Below, piece after piece: positions 10,558 through 64,000 of a stretch of DNA of 64,000 bases. The DNA is from Polytrichum commune. Taxonomy: Eukaryota > Streptophyta > Polytrichopsida > Polytrichales > Polytrichaceae. Both the position numbers and the translations under genes were made by a program. The notes under the pieces are model-generated. The model ran no database searches. It was not told the DNA's origin and saw only the letters and a program-made list of their open reading frames with translations. The DNA lies in the NCBI GenBank assembly GCA_950295325.1, contig OX485808.1:39454527-39518526 (forward strand). The letters are read 5' to 3'. Each line of letters opens with the position of its first letter. The stretch's first letter is position 1.

Positions 10558-11050
10558 GCAGTCCCGGTCCAGTAGCCCCTTAGATTCAACCAGCAGCTAG
10601 CTGGGCTTGCCGAGACCACCCTCTGCAGTCCCGGTCCAGTAGCCCCTTAGATTCAACCAGCAGCTAGCTGGGCTTGCCGAGACCACCCTCTGCAGTCCCG
10701 GTCCAGTAGCCCCTTAGATTCAACCAGCAGCTAGCTGGGCTTACCGAAACCACCCTCTGTAGTCTCGGTCCAGTAGCCCCTTAGACTCAACCAGCAGCCT
10801 GCTGGGCTTGCCGAAACCACCCTCTGCAGTCTCGGTCCAGTAGCCCCTTAGACTCAACCAGCAGGCTGCTAGGCTTGCCGAAACCACCCTCTGCAGTCTC
10901 GGTCCAGTAGCCCCTTAGACTCAACTAGCAGGCTGCTGGGCTTGCCGAAACCACCCTCTGTAGTCTCGGTCCAGTAGCCCCTTAGACTCAACCAGCAGCC
11001 TGCTGGGCTTGCCGAAACCACCCTTTGCAGTCCCGGTCCAGTAGCTTTGC
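10558..11050. repeat. 67-bp minisatellite, about 7.3 units
   Basis: Starts of successive units at 10558, 10625, 10692, 10759, 10826, 10893, 10960 and 11027 give an exact 67-bp period. Each unit begins GCAGTC(C/T)CGGTCCAGTAGC and ends with CCACCCTCT. Units 1-3 form one sequence subtype and units 4-7 another, so the array grew in at least two steps. It sits between the two copies of the LINE leader ORF. Confidence 0.97.
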
Positions 11051-12125: not shown

Positions 12126-12468
12126 GAGCCTTGGGAGGCCCCTGGACTAGCAGTCCCGGCAGCAGTTGAGCCTTGGGAAGCCCCTGGACTAAGCAGTCCC
12201 GGCAGCAGTTGAGCCTTGGGAGGCCCCTGGACTAGCAGTCCCGGCAGCAGTTGAGCCTTGGGAGGCCCCTGGACTAAGCAGTCCCGGCAGCAGTTGAGCC
12301 TTGGGAGGCCCCTGGACTAAGCAGTCCCGGCAGCAGTTGAGCCTTGGGAGGCCCCTGGACTAAGCAGTCCCGGCAGCAGTTGAGCCTTGGGAGGCCCCTG
12401 GACTAAGCAGTCCCGGCAGCAGTTGAGCCTTGGGAGGCCCCTGGACTAAGCAGTCCCGGCAGCAGTTG
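12126..12468. repeat. 42/43-bp minisatellite, 8 units
   Basis: Unit starts at 12126, 12168, 12211, 12253, 12296, 12339, 12382 and 12425. Units alternate between 42 and 43 bp at first (GGACTAG versus GGACTAAG) and are then uniformly 43 bp. The unit contains GAGCCTTGGGAGGCCCCTGG and the core CAGTCCCGG, which is also present in the 67-bp minisatellite 1.1 kb away. Confidence 0.97.
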
Positions 12469-13560
12469 ATGAAATCAACACCAAACTAATTTCAACTCTA
12501 GTGCTTAATCAATTGCTCATCTAAGCCTCTTAACTAATGAATGCACACCTCCCACTAAATTAATCCAATCTAACCACTACTCATGAGCTTAGTCCAATGA
12601 CTCTAAGCTTCCCCTACTCATAAGAGGGATTAACTTCCTAACTTCACTATAACTAACTAATCCACACATAAGCCTCAAACTCTAAGAGCTCGCTCCCCTT
12701 GAGAGGATTTGAGAGGGAGAGCTTAACTACTTAACTTCACTAAAACTAATGACCCACACACATGGCTCAAGCTCTTAAGAGCTTGCTTTCTTGAGAGCAC
12801 TTGATGGAGAGAGTTGTAAATGAGAGAGAAAACACCTTAAGTAGCAAAGAGGGAGAGAGGGAGAGAGAGGTGAGGATAGGGTGAGAGGATTAGCACCTCC
12901 AATCACAATCCCTTAACCTTCACCTTCAAAGTAGGGACTAATCCCCTTCCACCAAGCTTCATTCTTCCTAAACTAACAAAGTGGATCCAAAAGTGGGCAT
13001 TTAACCCGCGGAGCTCACCTTGCCTCACCTTACCCCCTACTCACATAATCAAGGCATCCTCTTATTGAATTCAACCTTGAAATAATCACACAACACATTC
13101 TAAAGCCTAAACTTAAATCCAAACCACACTTCACTCTTTTTATGTTTTGTGAATAATCATAGCACATCAAAGTCAAACTAAAATTGGTTTCGAAGAGTTA
13201 ATCACCACATGTGGGCACCATTTTGGGCTCACAACCTCTTAAACCTTCTCCCCCTTAGTAGGACCTCATCCTCTCCGCTAACCCTTCAACCCCTAAACCA
13301 ACAAGAACACGTTTTAATTCAAACAATTAAATCAAAGGCACTTTCCCTTGCCTCATCAAACACTACTCTTCTAATCAAAACACCCCCTAATCTCACTAAG
13401 CTTCTAATTCACCATACAAAATGGCTTAAGGCCTAAACATAAATCCACACCAAGCCTCACTCTTTTTATACTTTTGATTGTTTCAATAACACTCCAATTG
13501 CAATTCTAATTAAATTCTAAATATAAAACAAATATGAGCACTCATTTTGGACTCATATAA
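12469..13560. repeat. duplicated AT-rich leader/spacer sequence
   Basis: No gene. The block at about 13,030-13,200 is repeated with divergence at about 13,340-13,500: both contain GCCTAAAC(T/A)TAAATCCA, then CACTCTTTTTAT. A purine-rich tract lies at 12,690-12,880. The motif CCAATCACAATCCC near 12,900 parallels CCAATCACAACC near 11,480, so this may be a third, older copy of the leader unit. Confidence 0.55.
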
Positions 13561-28461: not shown

Positions 28462-28657
28462 GGGAGGATTGCGCCTGCCAAGGAAGTAGTGCAATACCAA
28501 GGCGACGCTTGCGGGCTCGGACAGCAAGCTGCCGGATAAGCCCTCACCCGAGAAAAATTAGATTAATATCATGAGACTCGATGAGTCTCGTATCAGATAT
28601 TAAACTGATAAGAACAGATACTACACTTGATCTTAGCCAAAAGGCCGAGAAAGGTAT
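28462..28657 (-). ncRNA. U2: U2 spliceosomal snRNA gene 1
   Basis: The minus strand starting at 28657 reads ATACCTTTCTCGGCCTTTTG, then GGCTAAGATCAAGTGTAGTA, containing the U6-pairing segment and the branch-point-recognition GTAGTA. It is followed by the Sm-site-like AATTTTTC and the two 3' stem-loops; 196 nt brings the end to about 28462. All conserved 5'-domain elements are intact. U2 pairs with the intron branch point and with U6 in the spliceosome. A TATA-like element and an upstream element are correctly placed before it. It is one of two tandem copies 1,318 bp apart. Confidence 0.97.
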
Positions 28658-29779: not shown

Positions 29780-29975
29780 GGGAGGGTTGCGCCAGCCAAG
29801 GAGGTAGTGCAATACCAAGGCGACGCTTGCGGGCTCGGACAGCAAGCTGCCAGATGAGCCCTCACCCGAGAAAAATTAGATTAATATCATGAGACTCGAT
29901 GAGTCTCGTATCAGATATTAAACTGATAAGAACAGATACTACACTTGATATTAGCCAAAAGGCCGAGAAAGGTAT
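29780..29975 (-). ncRNA. U2: U2 spliceosomal snRNA gene 2 (variant)
   Basis: Minus strand from 29975. It is nearly identical to gene 1 over 196 nt. Differences: GGCTAAGATC is GGCTAATATC (G26 to U in plant numbering), and a few changes lie in the 3' stem-loops (for example GCCGGATAAGC versus GCCAGATGAGC, and the terminal GGGAGGATTGC versus GGGAGGGTTGC). G26 belongs to the stretch that forms U2/U6 helix Ia, so this copy may be a weak variant or a pseudogene. Branch-point-recognition GTAGTA, Sm-like site and promoter are intact. Confidence 0.93.
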
Positions 29976-31431: not shown

Positions 31432-32604
31432 TCATTTGAGGCTGTCCACCAGGTTCTGTATATCTTTGAGGTGATCTTGGAGCATCTTCCACTGTACAAA
31501 ACAATCCCACCAGCCAGCCCCAGAGTTTAACAGAAAGCTGGTTGTGATGCTCTACTAAAGGCTTAAATATAATGCTCATGAATCTCGGAAATTTGAACTC
31601 AAAGTCACAATAAACTGCATAATTAGCAGGATGGTGTTTGTACCTGCTCTAGAGGAAGCGAGATTCCTGCAGCCAAAGAAGCAATGGTTAATCGACATGT
31701 AGGTAAACACTAACAATACATATAGCTCCGACATCATCAAGAAAAGATGACACACATGTGTCAGCAGACAATTGAAATGCTCACATCAAGTAAACAGATT
31801 GGAAATACGGTTGCAAAGCACTACAAATGCTTCTGTGGTCCTCAATCTAAGGTAGTCATACCTTTCTTTGATGGTAAATCCTCGCCATCTTTACTCCAGA
31901 ATTCCCTGATGTCCACAAACACCTTTCCTTTAAATTTCTTGACAACCACCTTGCGGGTCCGGGATAGCTGCAATGACATTGGCATGGCGAACAACAAATC
32001 ATTCACAAGAACTCAAATCTTTTAACTCCTGCATCCCACGTGTAGATGAGGGAACTAAACCTCGGTGCTTCGCCGTTTTCTGGTCAAATGTGACCACAAC
32101 AGAATGTGAAGTCATTCATAAAACATTTGCTGCTATACTATGATGATGAGGGAGAGGCTCACTTTGACATGAGAAAATTACAATATTACAATTACCAACG
32201 AGTCAATAATCTTTCACAAGAACTAAAATCTTCTAAACTCCTGCATCCCACATGTAGCTGAGGGAACCAATCCTCGGTGCTTCGCCGTTTTCTGGTCAAA
32301 TGTGACCACAACAGATTGTAAAGAGATTCATAAACCATGTGCTGCTATGCTATGATGATGAGGGATAGGCTAACTTTGACATAAGAAAGTTACAATACTA
32401 CAGTTATCAACGAGCCCTATATTTTGTTACACACTTACATACACAACATGTGCAAGAATCTTGCAAGAAAGAAAGCGAGAAGGAGATTACCTCGCAAGCA
32501 ACCACACCATTCCCATCCCCAGAGGCGACCGCCTTCTTGTTTGGTGGCACTACCTCTTCTTGGTCCGAAGGGTCGGACTCTTCTCCTGCCTTCCGCTTCG
32601 ACAT
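31432..32604 (-). CDS. KIWI: PC4/SUB1-type transcriptional coactivator (KIWI-like)
   Basis: Assembled from four minus-strand exons with GT-AG borders: 32604-32491, 31967-31862, 31666-31644 (only 23 nt) and 31491-31432, giving 100 residues. Exon 1 encodes a Lys/Glu/Ser-rich tail (MSKRKAGEESDPSDQEEV) with a PNKK basic patch. Exons 2-4 encode the PC4 single-stranded-DNA-binding fold: RKVVVKKFKGKVFVDIREFW, KDGEDLPSKKGISLPLEQW, and a final amphipathic helix LQDHLKDIQNLVDSL. The order and length match plant KIWI proteins, nuclear coactivators that join activators to RNA polymerase II. All phases agree. Intron 1 contains a 208-bp tandem duplication. It is divergently oriented to the ABHD11-like gene, about 0.8 kb away. 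Confidence 0.93.
31999..32413. repeat. 208-bp tandem duplication in intron 1 of the PC4-like gene
   Basis: Copy 1 (31,999-32,206) and copy 2 (32,207-32,413) share the words CTCGGTGCTTCGCCGTTTTC, TGGTCAAATGTGACCACAAC and ATGATGATGAGGGA in the same order, with scattered substitutions. Confidence 0.92.
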
Positions 32605-33414: not shown

Positions 33415-36400
33415 ATGGATCGAGGCATGGGTAGGTTTGGGAGGTTATGTGTTAGGGTATGGAGTGGGAGAGTTGGAGGAGTGGGGTTGTTGCAGAGATG
33501 TGAGAAATCGACGCTGGCATATGAGGAGTTGGTGGTGCCTGGAAAAGGGAGTGAGGAGGTGAAGACGGCGATGGTTGTTCATGGGTTGATGGGGTCAGGA
33601 CGCAACTGGCGGACTGTTTCGAAGCGCCTGGCGTCTGATATCGTCGACTCCAGTCCTCCAGGATCACCTGGTATGTGATTTTCAAAATCCTCTGCCTAAT
33701 CCTCCATTCCCCATTCACTCGATGGAAGAAAAGGATTCGCTACTTCTGGAGGAGAACAGATTTCAGCACATCTGCGGGAGTTCTGTGTGTCTCATCCAGC
33801 TGCTCAAGGACACCAGTGCAGGAAAACTTGGTACACATGATGTAAATGTTTCTAAAGCTTTTCTGTGATGTGTCTTCATAGTTTATGGATTCATAATTGA
33901 CAAGCAAAGTCCAGTACATTCATTTCTCTATGGTTGTTACGGGGTTTATTCAAATCTTATAACCCCCTGGCGCTCATGTCACATGGGATCCTCATAAACG
34001 GCACAACTGCACATTGAATGTCAGATAGGGTGTAGTTATGAAGCTCGAGAGGTAGGTGATTTTTGCACCTCGAGTTTGCCAGTTCCATTCATCTGATAGA
34101 GATAGAAGAATCTTCATTTTCAAATTCAGCACATCTGTGGAAGTTCTGTGTGTCTCATCCAGCTGCTCAAGGACAACATTGTAGGAAATTCCACTTCCAC
34201 TGTAATTAGTTCCAAAGCTATTCTATAATGTCTCTTCATGTTTATAAATTCATAATTTACAAGGAAAGTCCAGTACATGGTCATTGCTCCATGGTTGTTA
34301 CAGATTTTCTTCAAATCTCAAAACCCCTCTGGAGCCCATGTCCTATGGGGTGTTCATAAACGGCACAAATGAGCATTGAGTGTCAGATAGGGTTATTTAT
34401 GAAGCTTGAGAGATAGGTGGTTTGTGCACCTCGATTCTTGTAATTCCAGGTAGTCTGATAGAGACAAAAGAATCGTCATTTTCTTCCTTGCTGAACCTGA
34501 CGATGAATGCCACCACCGGGGTAGAACAATTTCAGCACATTTCTTCGACTTCTGTGTTTGGTACAATTTGTTAGAATTTCCCACGACCTCGATGTAGGCT
34601 ATCAATGTCTTTAATTCTAGCTGCTCAATGATAACAGTGGGAGAGATATTTCAACCATGATGTAGCTTCTAAGGAACTTTTCTGTATTTTCTCGTGATGG
34701 TTTAAGGAATCGCAATGTGCAAGGAAAAATGCAAGGCTTGGTCATTTCACTGGTTGGGTTAATTATAGTGGTTCAACCCCTCACCTCATGTCAATGTTCA
34801 TGATAGGGTTTATTAAGGTAGATGAGTCTTAAGCGGCATGTTTTCTTTATCAGACCCCTAGATTTGATTGGTATGTGGTTCGGTAAGGATCAAAGAGCAA
34901 ACATCATAAACTCACGTGTTCAAAAGAGACTGGACTGCGTCTTCAAATATTAATAACTATTCTACACTCACTAGTGAACACAATTGAGAGGACCTATGTA
35001 TCCAGCTAAGAAATCAACAAACATGCACTTCCGATAACCATAACTAAATCAGGCGAGGTCCAATTTTCAATCCACTTTTGGCAGATGTGTCATTGCAGAT
35101 TTGCTAATGCAACATGAGTTTTGTTGTGGAAATCTAATTCGTAGAAGTTGGAGAACATGAAAAATGAACCAAATAACACCCACATACCTTATGAAGCCTT
35201 GAGGTGTATTCCTGTCATGAGACTTCATTCAAAGTTTTACTGAAACTGGGAAAAATCAGCAATTCTGATCATCTCCTGTTTGCACTTCGCGTCACACATG
35301 GTCATACTGTTGATGTCAAAGTGACGCTGCAGGGTGGCGCATGGTTTTGGTGGACCTTCGAAACCACGGGCAATCAGCAAGCTTGCCTGCTTTTAAGCCA
35401 CCACACGATATCCCTGCAGCTGCCAGAGACATTGCTGACCTCATCAAAGCTGAGGGTTGGGGTACTCCAGATGCCATGATTGCACACTCTTTAGGAGGAA
35501 AAGTTGTGCTCGAGTTTGCTCAGAAAGCTGCTGCAGGCTCCTACAATGCAATCAGTCTTCCAAAACAGGTAGTTCACCTTCCTCCAGATCTTGCAGCCAT
35601 AGCATTGAAAATGTTAAATGGTTTGGGGCGCTTTTACCCTGAAACTGAGTCAGAGATATGTTACTATCTTATGTCACAGTATAGTTATTATTTGAACTGG
35701 AAGCATTGCATAGCCAATTGGAGAACATCCAGGAAGTTGAGATACTGTAGTTGGAATCTTTCACTGCCATCCCTGGTGAGGTAGAATGAGTAGTATTGAT
35801 TGAAAGTGCGTCAACAGCTTTGGGTTCTGGATTCGGTGCCAGGCGAGGTGCCCATGGAGAACTCAGATGGGGAGGTGGAGCGAGTGTTGGCCACACTAAA
35901 GTCCTTGCCCAAACCGATCCCATCACGCAGGTGTGCTGCTTGTATGTTCCAGAGTGTTTCCACCTCCAGTAGTGCAAGCTGTAATGTTGCTGCAATTGGT
36001 TACTTTCTTGCAAATGTCTCTAAAAGCCCATTCAGGGCCTTGCAATGTGAAACTTCAGATGGTGCAGGAATTTATTCTCCTGATTTGATTTTGAGAGCAG
36101 ATGGCTGGCAGACAATATGGTGAAGCAAGGATTCTCGAAAGGACTCGCTGACTGGCTGGGAAGCAATTTGAGGAGAATTGATACAACCACAGAGGAGATG
36201 GAATGGATCTTCAATGTTGATGGTGCATATGATATGTTTCATTCTTACAGGTATTGATTCTCTTATTCTCTCACTCATCCTGATGCAGACTTGCAAATGC
36301 CTCCAGTCTGTTGTGGTTCAAAAAGATACCTTGTGCACTTACCTTCAGGGTCTGCAATCATGTACAATGAAACTATATTTGAGTGGTCAGTTTCTGTCTT

Positions 36401-38278: not shown

Positions 38279-39210
38279 CATCAGCGCTGCTGAACTTATA
38301 AGTTGTTTTTCTTCTTCTATATCTCCATTATGAGTGTATGACTTGCATTGTTGTACTCTGCCTTGTGTTACTTTGGGTACACAGATTTCATGCGAAAGAG
38401 TAATATGGTTTGATCTTGTTGGGCTTAGAAATCAGGCACTTGAGGCTGAATTTCTTGAACCGAGTCGCAACCCTGGTCTTGGTATTATCGGTACTCCGAC
38501 GATTGGTAGAGCCATTTCTTGGTAATAGCTAAATTCTTCATATTTTGTTGCCAAACTTGCAGTGGGATCAAACCTACTTGTGATGGCACTCCCTGCCGGC
38601 CATGGCACCATGTTTGATGAACGATGGCACAATTAGCCTTTCCTCTTCCTCTCATGGCTGGTCACTCACATTTGAGATCCCTGCTGAACTTTTGTAAGTT
38701 TTTTAGGGGGTTCGACATGTAAGTGTACTCTTGTCATGTGACATAGGGTATACCTATTTCATTTATTATGAGAGTAATATGGTTTGATCTTATTGAGCTT
38801 GGGAAATCAGGCACTCGACGCTGACAATGAACCCTAGTCTTGATGTTATCGGTACTCCAATAAATGTTAAGAGCCAATTCTGGGCCCCACCCTGAATTCT
38901 AATTACTTCGTATCTTGTTGCCAAACTTGCAGTAGGGCCAATCCAAATTTGTGATGGCACTCGCTGCCGGCCATGACATCATGTTGATGAACGATAGCAC
39001 AATTAGCTTCTCCTCTTCCTCTCATCATTTCTTCTGGCTTCATACTTCATAAGCCGGTCACTCACATTTCAAATCACTGCTGACTTTACACTTTAGTCCA
39101 ATTGTAAGTGTGTTTTCCACATTTCTGTACTGCGCGATGTATCACATTGCGTATACCTATTTCATGCACAGGAATAACATGGTTAGATATTGCTGGTACT
39201 ACAACATTTA

Positions 39211-39264
39211 AATCCTAAACCCTAAAACTCTAAACCCTAAAACTCTAAACCCTAAACCCTAATC
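39211..39264 (+). promoter_or_regulatory. telomere-like AAACCCTAA cluster (telo boxes)
   Basis: Five imperfect repeats of CTAAACCCTAAA type lie 45-100 bp upstream of the start codon at 39308. Such telo boxes occur in promoters of many plant growth-related genes. They are present only in array unit 4. Confidence 0.7.
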
Positions 39265-39307: not shown

Positions 39308-42300
39308 ATGGCACTCGCTCCCGGCCATCATGTAACGGCATCGACGAACAACGATGGCTCAACTAGCCACCAGCTCCGACATTTCTCCGTGTCCAAATCA
39401 TCATCGCCGCAAGACCTCAGGGGAGGAGTGTTGAAGAAGGCCCCAGCGAGTTACCATACGCTAAGAGTGCGAGCGGGGCGTTCGAAGAAATCCACCCCTA
39501 CGAATCATGTGGAGCACCACTGCGAAGAAGGATCGAACACCGACTCCTCCTCCACGTTGAAGCCCCCATCGTTGCCGCCCAAACTGGGGCTTCATTGGCT
39601 GGACAACGGGGCCGAGCTGACGGGGTTGAAGATGGAAGAGCTCGTTCGAGGCGGCCATGGCATGCTGTTGGGCTCGCGCATCCCGAAACATTACTTCATG
39701 GTGAAAGGGTTCGGAGAGTCCGATCAAGGCGACGGATCCGATCCCTGGGAGACAGGCTCCTACGACCTCGCCCTTGAGCATGCTGGTACCAAAGCTAACC
39801 AAACTCCTCCTCCTATCATCTGCCGCCACGTGTCGTGTTGAATTGGCAGTATCAACCAATGCTGAAGTGACACGTGGTCGGTGATAATGGGAGCCTGTGC
39901 TGAGAAAAATGGGTTTCCAAGATATTGAAAAATAAGCAGAGCTAGTGTGGCATCATACTGAGTCACTACACTGATTATCGCGATTAGTGCATGTGATTCT
40001 ATGGAGTTATCCAGTGCAATAACGTCTTACTCAAGAGTGCAATTTTTATCAATGAAGGTTCAATAGGTTGTTCGGGTATTTATAATAGAACATAAATGAC
40101 TTCACTCAGTAAAATATTACGTTCTCGTTAAATAGTTATACCACTGCGTAACTTCGAATAGCAACACGCACCAATTGGGATAATGAGTACACTTTCCCGC
40201 CAAAGCACTCCTCGGAATTTGTGAGGAATTGGTCTTCAAAGGTTGGGTCCATTCTCGAGTTCGAAAGTGAGGTCCATGAAAGGGATGTTTTGGAAACCCC
40301 CCCCCCCCCCCCAAAAAAAAAAAAAAACTTTCTTGGACATGGACCCTAATGCAATCCCATCCTTACTTCCACCTCCAATAAGGTGTCACCACTTGTCTTG
40401 CTTTGGAGTTGGTTGCCTCAATCAATGTAGATGTAGGAATAACACATGACCGAATATGAGGGGTGAAGAAGAGTTCATTCCTCTCAGAATAGAGAGCCAT
40501 GTACGGTATCGAGTCTTCTTCTCACAACTACAATAATCATTTGATTTAGTATGGCCCACACCTACACCATATTCACCAAAGATTCACATTAATTGCCTTG
40601 CAATCATTAGATGGGAACCCGAGAGTGTGTTCTATGAGACTTGGTGTTGTAGGAGTAGTCATGATAACCCACTCTAATTAACACAACACACCAATTTCAA
40701 TGCCACATTCATTCAAATATTATTTAGTGTAACTATGTTTCTAAATGGAGTCTTGTATTTAGAGCAAGCCCACTTGTTGCCGTATTCGTATCCATAATAA
40801 CATGAATGCAGCCATCGACTTAGGAGATGTGGTATGATGAAATTCTAGAGGTATACTCATGTGCAATAAAACCCTCTTGCCGTATTATCCCTAATTTGGT
40901 TACTTTACTTTATTGGACACTTATATTTGAGTGGTATGTGGTTAGGTGTGGCTCCAAGTATGGATATCAAAAAGACATTTGTTTGAAAAAAATTGGACTA
41001 CATACTCAAAATATGATTACCATCTAGGCTCAATAGTCAACATGATTTAGGGGAGAACGCAATGTGACCTTTTTAATGACCCTTTATAGAGCACAAGAAT
41101 CGTCAGTTTGATAATGAGGAAGATATTCATGCGAGCTCCAAAAATTACAAGGAAAGCAGCTGCATCCTCGGTATGGATTTGCTAACCATGTCGTAAGTCC
41201 AAATCATGTGATTCATTTCCTAGGAGAAGTGGGCTAGTCAGAATAAAAGTAACTATTTAAGACCCATCTACCTTGACAGACATAAGGCTCCAATGAACGG
41301 GGGACAACCGACCGCTAAGTTACCAATGAACCGGCTGAGTTTGAGAAACAATCAGTTGAAGTTCACGATTGCAGGAAAATTACCGATTATTTTAGAGAAA
41401 TTTAGAGAATATACCTGAAATTAATAAAGAAAATCCGAACAATGTCAAGATGTAACTGGTTGGACTCGGAAACACTAGGATCTCAACCGATTATGCCCAA
41501 AAATCTCCCCGGACACTCTGAGGAGATGAAGTCGTCGTATGTACAACATAATCCAATGAGCTTGTGTAAATGTTGTTGTTGTTGCTGCTGCTGCAGGGAT
41601 TCAGGATCTGAACATTGTAAAATACACGTCGGTGATTCCGCCTGAGACAATCTCATGAGCTTGTATACATGTTGTTGTTACTGCTGCTGCTGCAGGGATT
41701 CAGGATCTGAACATTGTAAAATACACATCGGTGATTCCGCCTGAGACAATCTCATGGGCTTGTATAAATGATGTAGCTGTTACTGCTGCTGCAGAGATTC
41801 AGGATCTGAACATTAATTGTAAAATACACGTCGGTGATTCCGCCTGAGGCAATCTCATGAGCTTGTGTAAATGTTGTTGTTGCTGCTGCTGCTGCAGGGA
41901 TTCAGGATCTGAACATCATAAAATACACGTCGGTGATTCCGCCTGAGGCGGAGGCCGTGTCGGTGGAGGAGGCGAAGCCCTTCTTGCGACACGGAGCTGT
42001 GCTGGAGTCCATCATGTCTGTAATGCATGGCGTCAAGGGTGACCGCATCACCGCTGGTGTTGGTCGTGTGCAGGTAAGTAGGATCAAAACTTTATTATTA
42101 AATCATGATTCCCAACTACTAAGGTGTATGCGGGTGTGGGTGTTGTTCGGATACTCTTCTGAATTGGATACTTGTACACTCTAAACTCTGTAATATGAAC
42201 CTCCTTGATGTCACTCCTCCTCTTGTATCCTGAAACCCTAAGGACCGGATGTTCTCAGTTTAAATCTCCTCCTTGTTGTCATGTTTTCTATCCCATATAT

Positions 42301-43407
42301 CATGGGTTTTGACATCAAAATAAATCACCAAAGAATTCAAACCACACACTGGCACACATCATGTTGTCGTCATTGTAATTATTGTCAATATTGTGATGTA
42401 GGATTTATTTTATTCCATGATGTCACATGCTCCACTAACAACTTTTATCACGCATCCACGTTAATATTGTAGAACTCCTCGATATCACGTGCACTTTGGT
42501 TGTCACGAGCATGATATTACAGAGTTTTAGAGTGGATTTGATGAAGTGTGTGGTTAGGCGAGGAACAAAGAACGTACACCATAAAGACACATGTTTAATC
42601 GAGGTTGGACTACGTTTTCATCTTCTATGAACTATTCCAGACTCGAAAGTGAACACACTTGAGAGGAGCTATGCATTTTAATTAAGGAAACAACGAGTCT
42701 GCATTTCCGAGAACTCGTGATAAAATTAGAGGAGGTTTGACTACTAAGTGTCATGTGACTCTCTTCAGTTGCCACCCATTGATTGCAAGACAATTAATGT
42801 GGGTCAACGATGAATAGTGTGGACCACATTGTTTTTGGGGGGGCTGTTGTTGTTGAAGTCATTATATGATATAGTTTTTTGGAGACATACATTTCAAATT
42901 GGATAACCATGCATGAAATTTGGAGATTAAGCTATGGGAGGTGATAGACAAATCTCAATACCTGCATATGGGGAAAACAGTTGTTAAATACTTCTATTTT
43001 AGCTAATTCTGATCACGGAGTCGATGTGACAAATTACTGAAGAAAAGAGACGCACACAATCCAGCTGAGTGCTAAAACTTTGGAGGTACAGTTTTATTTT
43101 ATTTTAATTACATTTTGTGACCAAATACGGACTCGTTTTCCATCGGCAGATCCGAAGAAAGAAGGATAAATTCCACATCGGAGGGTATGCGGCAGAGTAT
43201 GAAGGCCACGCAAGCGCGGACAAGGCGAAAAGTATATTGAAGAAGGACTTGGTTGGAATTTTCCAAAGACGCTTTGATGACAAGGAGTACGAGTGCTTTG
43301 AAGAAGACTTCATCATCCAAGAGTCGGAAGTAGACAAAAGCTTTGGCTCCGTGTTAGCCTCAATCTGCTTTGTCACTTACGTGTTACCAACATACACTTG
43401 TGCTTAA
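39308..43407 (+). CDS. pyruvoyl-dependent arginine decarboxylase-like protein
   Basis: Three exons, phases consistent: 39308-39785, 41898-42073 and 43150-43407; 303 residues. Residues 1-57 are Ser/Thr/His-rich without acids before Asp16 and reach LRVRAGRSKK, a plausible plastid transit peptide. From about residue 126 the protein matches archaeal pyruvoyl-dependent ArgDC: PKHYFMVKGFGES, YDLALEHAGIQDLN, then KYTSVIPPEAEAV. Ser171 corresponds to the serine that self-cleaves to give the pyruvoyl cofactor. GYAAEYEGHAS (Glu234-Glu236) contains the conserved catalytic Glu. The enzyme would convert arginine to agmatine for polyamine synthesis without PLP. Exon 2 is preceded by three decoy copies of its own acceptor and first 50-odd bases. 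Product activity is inferred, not shown. Confidence 0.85.
39786..41555. other. intron 1 of the decarboxylase-like gene, left part
   Basis: Contains a C tract followed by an A tract at about 40,299-40,327 and, at 41,340-41,520, a copy of the dispersed repeat also found at 25,640-25,835. Nothing else is recognisable. Confidence 0.6.
41556..41955 (+). repeat. four tandem copies of the exon-2 splice acceptor and exon start
   Basis: Units start at 41556, 41655, 41754 and 41857 (99, 99, 103 bp). Each has ATG(A/G)GCTTGT, a GTTGTT/CTGCTG run ending in CAG, then GGATTCAGGATCTGAACAT and the bases encoding KYTSVIPPE. Exon-like starts are at 41597, 41696, 41795 and 41898. Units 1-3 diverge right after CCGCCTGAG; only unit 4 continues into the full exon. 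Unit 3 has CAG|AG and a 4-base insertion that breaks its frame. Reading in from unit 1 meets TGA after PPETIS. Confidence 0.95.
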
Positions 43408-50039: not shown

Positions 50040-50350
50040 TTGTCTTTGTTTGTCTCGATGTTGTTGCACAGGAATTGGTGCAGGAGAGCATCGTGAGGTT
50101 TGAGCAAACCCTCGTTCCCTCACTTTGTGTTCACCTCGTCATATCAGCAGAGTGCCCACACGTAAGTGTTTGCTAGGATTTTTTCTTTCTGCCATCGATT
50201 TTGTTACACAAGGATTGGTGCGGAAGAGCCTTGTGGTTTGTGAGACAACCCTTGCTCCTTCACTCTGTTTCCTCAGGGGAAGGCAGACGTCTTTGCCAGT
50301 TAAATTGTGAGTGAATTTGTTGCTTAGGAATTGGTGTGTGAATTGTGAGA
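50040..50350 (+). promoter_or_regulatory. duplicated 5' leader of the IWS1 gene
   Basis: A block of about 140 bp is repeated: GTTGTTGCACAGGAATTGGTGCAGGAGAGC (50,060) and TTGTTACACAAGGATTGGTGCGGAAGAGC (50,200), each followed by TTTG(A/T)G and CCTTCACT-like words. A third partial copy, TTGTTGCTTAGGAATTGGTG, ends just before the start codon. AG|G at each copy could serve as alternative acceptors in a 5'-UTR intron. Confidence 0.7.
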
Positions 50351-51760
50351 ATGAGTGATGAGGAGGGTTCCCGGGATGGAGGAAGACCTCAAGAGGAGGA
50401 AGAGGAGGAGGAGGGGATGATTAGGGAGAGAAGCAGTGCAAAAGCCGGAGGGCGGCCACGGAAGCGATTGGTAAAGAAGAGCGTGGCAGTAGAGGAGGAT
50501 GAAGACGAGGACGAAGAAGAAGATGAGGTAGAGAGGAGGCGGAGGTTGAAGAAGGTGAGGAGAGAGGAAACCGCCGTGGTTGGGAAAGGGAAAGGGAAGC
50601 AGCAGAAGAAGATGAAGGGGGAGAAAGAGATGAAAGAGATGTGGGAGTCAGTGGCGGGAGATGGCGATGATGAGGAGGAAGAACGGGGGAGATCAGGGGA
50701 GGACGATGACGAGGGCGTCCCAGATGAGGATGACGATAGGTTCATCGATGACACAGGAGTTCCCGAGGACGAGCGACGTGTGATCAGCGACGGAGATGGG
50801 TCTGAGGAGGATGAAGATCGGGGGAGGGGAGGGGGAAGGAGAAGGGAAGCGCCACCGGAAGCAGAAGAGGCAGAGGAGGGGGAGGAGGAGGAGGAGTTTG
50901 GGAAGAAGAAGAAGAATAAGAAGCTGGAGAGGACGCCAGAGGAGATAGCCATGTTCGTGGAGCAGTTCATGGCGAAGCTGGATGTGGCAGCGGAGCAAGA
51001 CGCGGATTTGAACCGTAGGTCAAAGCCTGCGATTGAGAAGCTGAAGATGCTCGGGGAGCTCTGGAATGTGCTGCAGAAACGGCAGTTGCAGCAGGAATTT
51101 CTGGATCGAGGTGTGTTGTCTTCCCTGAAGAACTGGCTGGAGCCTCTGCCTGATGGGTCTTTGCCTAATATGAACATCCGGACTACTTTGCTTAAGCTCC
51201 TCACGGATCTGCCCATTGACGTGGAGCATTTTGAAAGGCGGGAGCAGTTGAAGAAAAGTGGGTTAGGGAAAGTGGTCATGTTCCTCTCTCGCCTGCCTGA
51301 GGAGACTTCCACTAATAAAAAGTTGGCTAGGGATCTTGTGGATAAGTGGAGTAGACCCATTTTCCAGAAGAGTACTAGGTATGAGGATTTGCGTACGTAT
51401 GATGAGGAGCGTCCAATGCCAAGGAGGACTCCAATGAAGAAGCCTGTGCCAAAGCGCGCCCAATTGGACAGAGGAGGAGATGAATTGGATATGATGCAGC
51501 AGAGTGAGGAGCTGAAGAGAGGGGATGCTGGGTACAGGCAGCATGCCTCCAGGCCTGAAGCGCTTCCTCTCGATTTTGTCAGGCGCCCTCAGTCGAAGGT
51601 GGATCCCCATGAGGTGGAGAACAGGGCACGGCAACAGCGGCAGGAGGAAAAGCGTATGAAGATGAACAAGAAACTTCAGCAATTGAAGACCACGAAGAAG
51701 AATATGCAAGCTTCAAAGATTAGTGTCGAAGGTCGTGGTGTGGTCAATTACCTTGGTTGA
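50351..51760 (+). CDS. IWS1: IWS1/Spn1 transcription elongation factor
   Basis: An uninterrupted 469-residue frame. The ATG at 50351 is chosen because the frame upstream offers only a GTG. Residues 1-190 are low-complexity and highly charged (acidic runs alternating with KR-rich stretches). Residues about 195-340 form the TFIIS N-terminal (LW) domain: ERTPEEIAMFVEQFMAKLDV, KLKMLGELWNVLQKRQLQQ, FLDRGVLSSLKNWLEPLPDG, TTLLKLLTDLPIDVEHFERR and ARDLVDKWSRPIFQKS. The C-terminus is basic (RQQRQEEKRMKMNKKLQQLK) and ends in VEGRGVVNYLG, as in IWS1 proteins. IWS1 works with Spt6 and RNA polymerase II in elongation and, in plants, in brassinosteroid-regulated transcription. The coding region has no intron. 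Confidence 0.93.
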   Translation: MSDEEGSRDGGRPQEEEEEEEGMIRERSSAKAGGRPRKRLVKKSVAVEEDEDEDEEEDEVERRRRLKKVRREETAVVGKGKGKQQKKMKGEKEMKEMWESVAGDGDDEEEERGRSGEDDDEGVPDEDDDRFIDDTGVPEDERRVISDGDGSEEDEDRGRGGGRRREAPPEAEEAEEGEEEEEFGKKKKNKKLERTPEEIAMFVEQFMAKLDVAAEQDADLNRRSKPAIEKLKMLGELWNVLQKRQLQQEFLDRGVLSSLKNWLEPLPDGSLPNMNIRTTLLKLLTDLPIDVEHFERREQLKKSGLGKVVMFLSRLPEETSTNKKLARDLVDKWSRPIFQKSTRYEDLRTYDEERPMPRRTPMKKPVPKRAQLDRGGDELDMMQQSEELKRGDAGYRQHASRPEALPLDFVRRPQSKVDPHEVENRARQQRQEEKRMKMNKKLQQLKTTKKNMQASKISVEGRGVVNYLG

Positions 51761-63200: not shown

Positions 63201-63790
63201 CGTCCGCCCCTGTTCCCGACCCCGTCCGCTCCGTTCCCAACCCCGTACGCCCCGTTCCCCCCCCGTCCGCGCCCTGTTCCCCCCCGTCCGCGCCCCGTTC
63301 CCCCCCGTCCGCGCCCCGTTCCCCCCGTCCGCGCCCCGTTCCCCCCGTCCGCGCCCCGTTCCCCCCGTCCGCGCCCCGTTCCCCCCGTCCGCGCCCCGTT
63401 CCCCCCGTCCGCGCCCCGTTCCCCCCGTCCGCGCCCCGTTCCCCCCGTCCGCGCCCCGTTCCCCCCGTCCGCGCCCCGTTCCCCCCGTCCGCGCCCCGTT
63501 CCCCCCGTCCGCGCCCCGTTCCCCCCGTCCGCGCCCCGTTCCCCCCGTCCGCGCCCCGTTCCCCCCGTCCGCGCCCCGTTCCCCCCGTCCGCGCCCCGTT
63601 CCCCCCGTCCGCGCCCCGTTCCCCCCGTCCGCGCCCCGTTCCCCCCGTCCGCGCCCCGTTCCCCCCGTCCGCGCCCCGTTCCCCCCGTCCGCGCCCCGTT
63701 CCCCCCGTCCGCGCCCCGTTCCCCCCGTCCGCGCCCCGTTCCCCCCGTCCGCGCCCCGTTCCCCCCGTCCGCGCCCCGTTCCCCCCCGTC
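63201..63790. repeat. 20-bp GC-rich satellite, 24 perfect units plus diverged edge
   Basis: From 63301 to 63780 the 20-mer CCCCCCGTCCGCGCCCCGTT repeats 24 times without change. Units to the left (63,200-63,300) are variant in sequence and length. The array is open in reading frames on both strands (giving PPVRAPFPPSAPRSPRPR-type peptides) simply because it lacks stops; I do not call a gene. The minus strand has frequent G5-G6 runs and could form G-quadruplexes. Confidence 0.97.
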
Positions 63791-64000
63791 CGCCCCAGTT
63801 TTTTTTTTTTTTTTTTTTTTTTCCCCCCCCCTTCCCCGTCAGCCCCATTTAAAAAAAAAAAATTCCCCCCCCTCCGTCCGCTCCCGTTCCCCCCCGTCCG
63901 CCCCAGTTTTTTTTTTTTTTTTTTCCCCCCCCCCCTTCCCTGTCCGCCCCATTTAAAAAAATAAAATTTCCCCCCCCTCCGTCCGCTCCCGTTCCCCCCC
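63781..64000. repeat. 105-108-bp higher-order repeat, running off the window
   Basis: The unit consists of CCCCCCCGTCCGCCCCAG, a T tract (18-24), a C tract with CTTCCC(C/T)GTC, CCCCATTT, an A tract, then CCCCCCCCTCCGTCCGCTCC. It starts at 63781, at about 63889 and again at about 63994. It is built on the same CCCCGTCCGC word as the 20-bp satellite. Confidence 0.9.

Follow-up and report, generated by a model that had tools for sequence, protein, structure and literature searches.

The first intron of a gene in Polytrichum commune ends in four nearly identical splice acceptors, and the last of them alone opens a complete exon. How did this array arise, which acceptor is used, and what becomes of transcripts spliced to one of the other three? 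We examined the locus within a 64,000-nt stretch of contig OX485808.1 (positions 39,454,527 to 39,518,526), hereafter the window, in whose numbering all coordinates are given.

Gene structure and predicted protein

The array lies in a three-exon coding region for a protein of 303 amino acids at 39308-43407 on the + strand, with the following parts:

39308..39785, + strand: coding part of exon 1, with the ATG at 39308
39786..41897, + strand: intron 1 with acceptor 4 in use, 2112 nt, GT-AG
41898..42073, + strand: exon 2, 176 nt; encodes the presumed Thr-Ser self-cleavage pair and the conserved Asn; donor CAG/GTAAGT
43150..43407, + strand: exon 3, reading frame up to the stop codon

The 303-residue protein matches the profile PF01862 (E 2.6e-31, 109.1 bits against a cut-off of 22.7) over all of its positions (1-161 of 161), the domain occupying residues 125-293. 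By this match the predicted protein is a member of the pyruvoyl-dependent arginine decarboxylase (PvlArgDC) family. It falls below the NCBIfam cut-offs of TIGR00286 (58.1 versus 106.95 bits) and PRK12398 (52.4 versus 207 bits), and since both matched NCBIfam models score it under their cut-offs, we assign it to the family and leave its substrate unspecified. The motif NIIKYTSVIPPE lines up with PDB entries 1n2m and 2qqd, and the self-processing Ser, the conserved Asn and the Glu, positions which we take to be catalytic in this family, are all present in the alignment. Among the 77 other aligned homologues, Ser is kept in 75, Asn in 76, a count that is partly built in as one of the two homologue search patterns contained Asn, and Glu in 69 (5 Gln, 1 Leu and 2 gaps in the remainder). 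These three residues, conserved in the alignments, are what the protein shares with the family as represented by 1n2m and 2qqd; it differs in having a gene with introns, an N-terminal extension of about 120 residues and a presumed Thr-Ser cleavage pair. The N-terminus is rich in Ser/Thr and in Lys/Arg, with 2 acidic residues among the first 65, a composition that may be that of a plastid transit sequence.

The two donors differ in strength. The donor of exon 1, between 39785 and 39786 (CTG/GTACCA), is weak, with CTGGTACCA agreeing with the consensus at 5 of 9 positions, and that of exon 2 agrees at 9 of 9. At the joint of exons 1 and 2, the spliced protein aligns without gaps to two bacterial relatives.

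Relatives and genomic surroundings

A protein search at E ≤ 0.001 found one gene of this family in the 408-Mb genome (407.8 Mb in 64 contigs), and among the eight candidates scored in that search none was a paralogue that could serve for a single-copy comparison. The same genome also encodes an ordinary PLP-type arginine decarboxylase (TIGR01273, 702.7 bits against a cut-off of 624.1). PF02784 matches the genome in 8 pieces at 4 places, of which examination covered one, L082. No close protein relative was confirmed in the genome contigs, viral contigs or phages searched. A plasmid search returned two distant homologues, and a wider scan of genome contigs gave 75 homologous loci, bacterial or archaeal by title, the nearest of the 75 fetched being from a gammaproteobacterial MAG at 46% identity. 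Gene transfer is a possible origin of the gene. Among the titles and abstracts listed in a literature search, none dealt with the PvlArgDC family in land plants; in the available text of a duckweed paper (PMC8545783), the word 'pyruvoyl' appears a single time, among the references.

Just upstream of the gene start is a telomere-like run of CCCTAAA type (39209-39262). Elsewhere, the window contains two U2 snRNA genes, at 28464-28657 (−) and 29782-29975 (−), identical at 188 of 194 bases and with about 100 bp of upstream sequence in common; beside them, no sequence within one mismatch of the plant snRNA upstream element, in what we take to be its consensus, was found. The U2 sequence and the gene content of the window suggest a plant. 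It also matches two C/D snoRNA families and encodes a DDE transposase domain and a reverse transcriptase, presumably LINE-like. At 50345-51760 (+), a 471-residue open frame, intronless within the frame, carries a TFIIS-helical-bundle (Med26) domain and is, we assume, IWS1-like. Other tandem arrays lie at 10558-11045 (67-bp unit), 12126-12469 (43 bp), 31997-32414 (212 bp), 33762-34483 (362 bp) and 63248-63800 (about 20 bp).

Anatomy of the four-acceptor array

The array spans 41556-41955 and consists of four units of 99, 99, 103 and 99 bp, each carrying a copy of the final 41 nt of intron 1, the acceptor CTGCAG included, followed by some 50 nt of exon 2. Tandem Repeats Finder reports it at 41556-41947, with a period of 99, 3.9 copies, 88% matches and a score of 636.

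41556..41654, + strand: unit 1, decoy; acceptor ends at 41596, exon-like part 41597-41646; 179 amino acids, stop at 41656-41658
41655..41753, + strand: unit 2, decoy; acceptor ends at 41695; 209 amino acids, stop at 41845-41847
41754..41856, + strand: unit 3, decoy; acceptor ends at 41794, 4-nt insertion; 176 amino acids, stop at 41845-41847
41857..41955, + strand: unit 4; acceptor ends at 41897; the sole copy running on into the complete exon

An earlier note on this DNA had described four near-identical tandem acceptors, three of them decoys, each unit with the codons of the active-site serine. This anatomy is confirmed, and the exon starts that it gave (41597, 41696, 41795 and 41898) match the AG ends exactly. 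The last 12 nt are identical in all four acceptors; further upstream, the tract of unit 3 is altered and contains an additional AG at −20. Within the 64-kb window, blastn (E 1e-3) found no further copy of the array, of exon 1 or of exon 3, and a DNA search of the whole genome, with simple repeats skipped, placed the 400-bp array at a single locus. Recursive (ratcheting) splice sites were considered and rejected: the junctions read CAG/GG in units 1, 2 and 4 and CAG/AG in unit 3, with AG/GT in none.

Predicted products of the four acceptors

Measured to the common donor downstream, the exons opened by acceptors 1-4 would be 477, 378, 279 and 176 nt long. Acceptor 4 alone yields the complete 303-residue protein, with a stop codon ending at 43407; the note had likewise seen only the fourth unit continue into the full exon. 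It also read two of the other frames correctly: acceptor 1 leads to a TGA directly after PPETIS, and acceptor 3 shifts the frame and stops, through the 4-nt insertion of unit 3. The frame of acceptor 2, ending after 209 residues, is added here. The truncated chains would be without most of the alpha chain, the conserved Glu included.

Nonsense-mediated decay acts on messages in which more than about 50 nt separate the stop codon from the final exon junction downstream. In the acceptor 1, 2 and 3 isoforms, the stops precede the exon 2/3 junction by 415, 226 and 226 nt, so that decay, rather than a stable truncated enzyme, would be expected. The truncated products carrying the active-site serine that the earlier note had envisaged are therefore unlikely to accumulate.

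Which acceptor is used

The acceptor site itself gives the fourth copy no advantage, as its last 12 nt are those of the other three. Branch points follow the consensus YTNAY, and a sequence of this form stands at −41 of acceptors 2, 3 and 4 alike and so sets acceptor 4 apart from neither of the other two; the 70 nt preceding acceptor 1 contain none. Base composition favours acceptor 4 at one scale. With 100 nt compared on each side, acceptor 4 shows a GC rise of 0.14 and a U fall of 0.14, versus a GC change of −0.02 to 0.00 and a U fall of −0.04 to 0.02 at acceptors 1-3; the acceptor of intron 2, for comparison, shows a GC rise of 0.10 and a U fall of 0.20. Over ±50 nt, acceptor 4 has no such advantage, with U falls of 0.12, 0.10, 0.04 and 0.12 and GC changes of 0.04, 0.00, −0.04 and −0.02 at acceptors 1-4, and at ±200 nt a GC rise is also found at acceptor 3 (0.07 versus 0.11 at acceptor 4).

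Acceptor 4 is probably favoured because it alone defines a short (176-nt) exon with a strong donor, and because the sequence changes there from AU-richer to GC-richer. A survey of competing 3′ splice sites (PMC9225289) reports, in the portion available, an overall preference for upstream sites that is reduced for equal sites between long introns; a reversal is not stated in that section. These published competition data allow for leakage into acceptors 1-3. We thus expect acceptor 4 to be mostly used, with some leakage into the other three, bearing in mind that the rules of the survey may not be those of this organism.

Copy relations and a proposed stepwise origin

The units were compared over 91 sites (41 intron, 50 exon), leaving out 8 tail columns. 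Thirteen of the 91 vary among the four copies, 10 of them by transition, in addition to the 4-nt indel. The outermost copies, units 1 and 4, differ at 3 of 91 sites (1 of 41 in the intron parts, 2 of 50 in the exon parts), and units 3 and 4 at 10 of 91 plus the indel. Exon parts 1-3 carry TG where copy 4 carries CA, GTATA is common to intron parts 2 and 3, GAGA to copies 1 and 2, and CAATCTC to all three inner junctions.

These relations fit a stepwise duplication model. In a first step, a segment reaching from about 41 nt or further before the end of intron 1 to about 50 nt into exon 2 would have been duplicated in tandem, giving the order intron-exon-intron-exon; in a second, the inner exon-intron segment would have been copied twice more to give four acceptors. 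The TG and CA variants may both derive from a single ancestral CpG, lost independently on each side through one change. If substitutions occur at about 7e-9 per site per year, the divergence of units 1 and 4 would correspond to an age of, roughly, a few million years. Of the two ideas in the earlier note, recent slippage, taken to include duplication, is the better one; expansion of the (GTT/CTG)n run by itself does not account for the array, as the duplicated unit is a 3′-intron/5′-exon segment.

Among the three decoys, variable sites are scarcer in the exon-like part than in the intron part (2/50 versus 9/41 sites, Fisher p=0.02), and among all four copies the difference is 4/50 versus 9/41 (Fisher p=0.07), in both cases leaving out the 4-nt indel and the 8 tail columns. 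Six of the 9 variable intron sites fall within the GTT/CTG run and the copies, having a common history, are non-independent, so we do not read the difference as selection. The lower variation of the decoy exon parts could nonetheless hint at constraint, and to that extent counts against a purely passive reading.

Weighing the explanations

We consider it likely that the array is a leftover of passive duplication, neutral or slightly harmful, in which acceptor 4 is productive and leakage is decayed. Acceptor 4 would make the working mRNA, and splicing into acceptors 1-3 would give early-stop messages that enter nonsense-mediated decay, so that yield would be lowered a little and no new proteins made. 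The presence of other tandem arrays in the window is counted in favour of this explanation. The decoys might instead serve regulated unproductive splicing, absorbing a share of the transcripts so that the decayed fraction sets the enzyme dose, perhaps in response to polyamines. This agrees with the CTGCAG kept in all three decoy acceptors (3/3), with the distance of the decoy stops from the exon 2/3 junction, each beyond the roughly 50 nt of the decay rule, with the lower variation of the decoy exon parts (p=0.02) and with the weak exon 1 donor CTGGTACCA; the frequent preference for upstream 3′ sites, in the part of the survey available (PMC9225289), also suits decoy use. Any frame-breaking duplicate would, however, give the same picture, and the altered tract of unit 3, with its extra AG, counts against maintained function. 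The decoy acceptors bear no clear sign of selection and nothing positive speaks for the splicing-based dosage control proposed in the earlier note, which we regard as unlikely.

A different possibility is that an intron is being gained, a donor in each decoy unit being spliced to the next acceptor. The candidate donors are:

41617..41622, + strand: weak donor-like GTAAAA of unit 1; also at 41716 (unit 2) and 41819 (unit 3)

They lie 20, 20 and 24 nt into the exon parts of units 1-3 and would delimit micro-exons of these lengths and introns of 79 nt. Unit 4 has CATAAAA in place of GTAAAA and so is without the GT, which is counted in favour of the idea, and inclusion of the unit 3 micro-exon alone keeps the frame, giving 311 residues with 8 added just before the cleavage site. 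The layout resembles an intron gain in a potato RdRp gene through a cryptic GTAAG donor, as described in the available text of PMC4974935. Against it, GTAAAA agrees with the donor consensus at 4 of 9 positions, a score that 55% of all + strand GTs of the window (3584 in total) equal or exceed, and of the seven patterns of micro-exon inclusion one is in frame, the other six stopping at 170 residues. Micro-exons of 20-24 nt are, moreover, presumably hard to define. Intron gain under way is accordingly an improbable reading, and we give equally little credence to its fuller version, an intron birth in progress in which a single acceptor duplication gave rise to three 79-nt proto-introns and proto-micro-exons of 20, 20 and 24 nt, the 4-nt insertion brought the unit 3 micro-exon into frame, allowing the 8 extra residues next to the self-cleavage site, and the remaining patterns act as a splicing brake on dose. 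Least probable of all is an artefact in which one acceptor was expanded through mis-joined reads. Errors are generally frequent in short tandem arrays that contain a (GTT/CTG)n run, but the differences between the copies, at 13 of 91 sites and in the 4-nt indel, speak against a simple assembly duplication, as do the preponderance of transitions (10/13), the nested pattern of the differences and the size of the contig, 44.7 Mb in a 64-contig assembly.

Comparison with known systems

Duplication across an intron-exon boundary is already known in print. In the potato RdRp gene PGSC0003DMG402000361.L, the boundary of intron 1 and exon 2 was duplicated in tandem, as far as the available text of the report goes (PMC4974935). 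As in our case, the gene is that of a plant, the duplicated stretch runs from the 3′ part of intron 1 into the 5′ part of exon 2, and the acceptor was copied along with its upstream signals. The potato gene has two duplicates, and RNA-seq reads support a new intron there with a cryptic GTAAG donor, whereas here there are four copies with a weak GTAAAA, and the frame would be kept only by acceptor 4, directly or with the unit 3 micro-exon. The alternative 3′ sites at least 20 nt apart in the available part of PMC9225289 are similar in offering several near-equal acceptors for one exon with long flanking introns; those are annotated alternative exons, whereas the present acceptors are tandem copies of which one choice is productive. 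PMC549713 was considered as a precedent and set aside, as its available text concerns a different case, duplicated exons of Cenpc in grasses and, in Arabidopsis, a shift by one codon from one acceptor to its neighbour.

The locus is a natural competition test, with four near-identical acceptors about 100 nt apart in one intron and the last alone productive. As such it could tell the effect of proximity from that of exon definition in acceptor choice, and it bears on acceptor duplication as a starting point of new introns, as described for potato in the part of PMC4974935 available.
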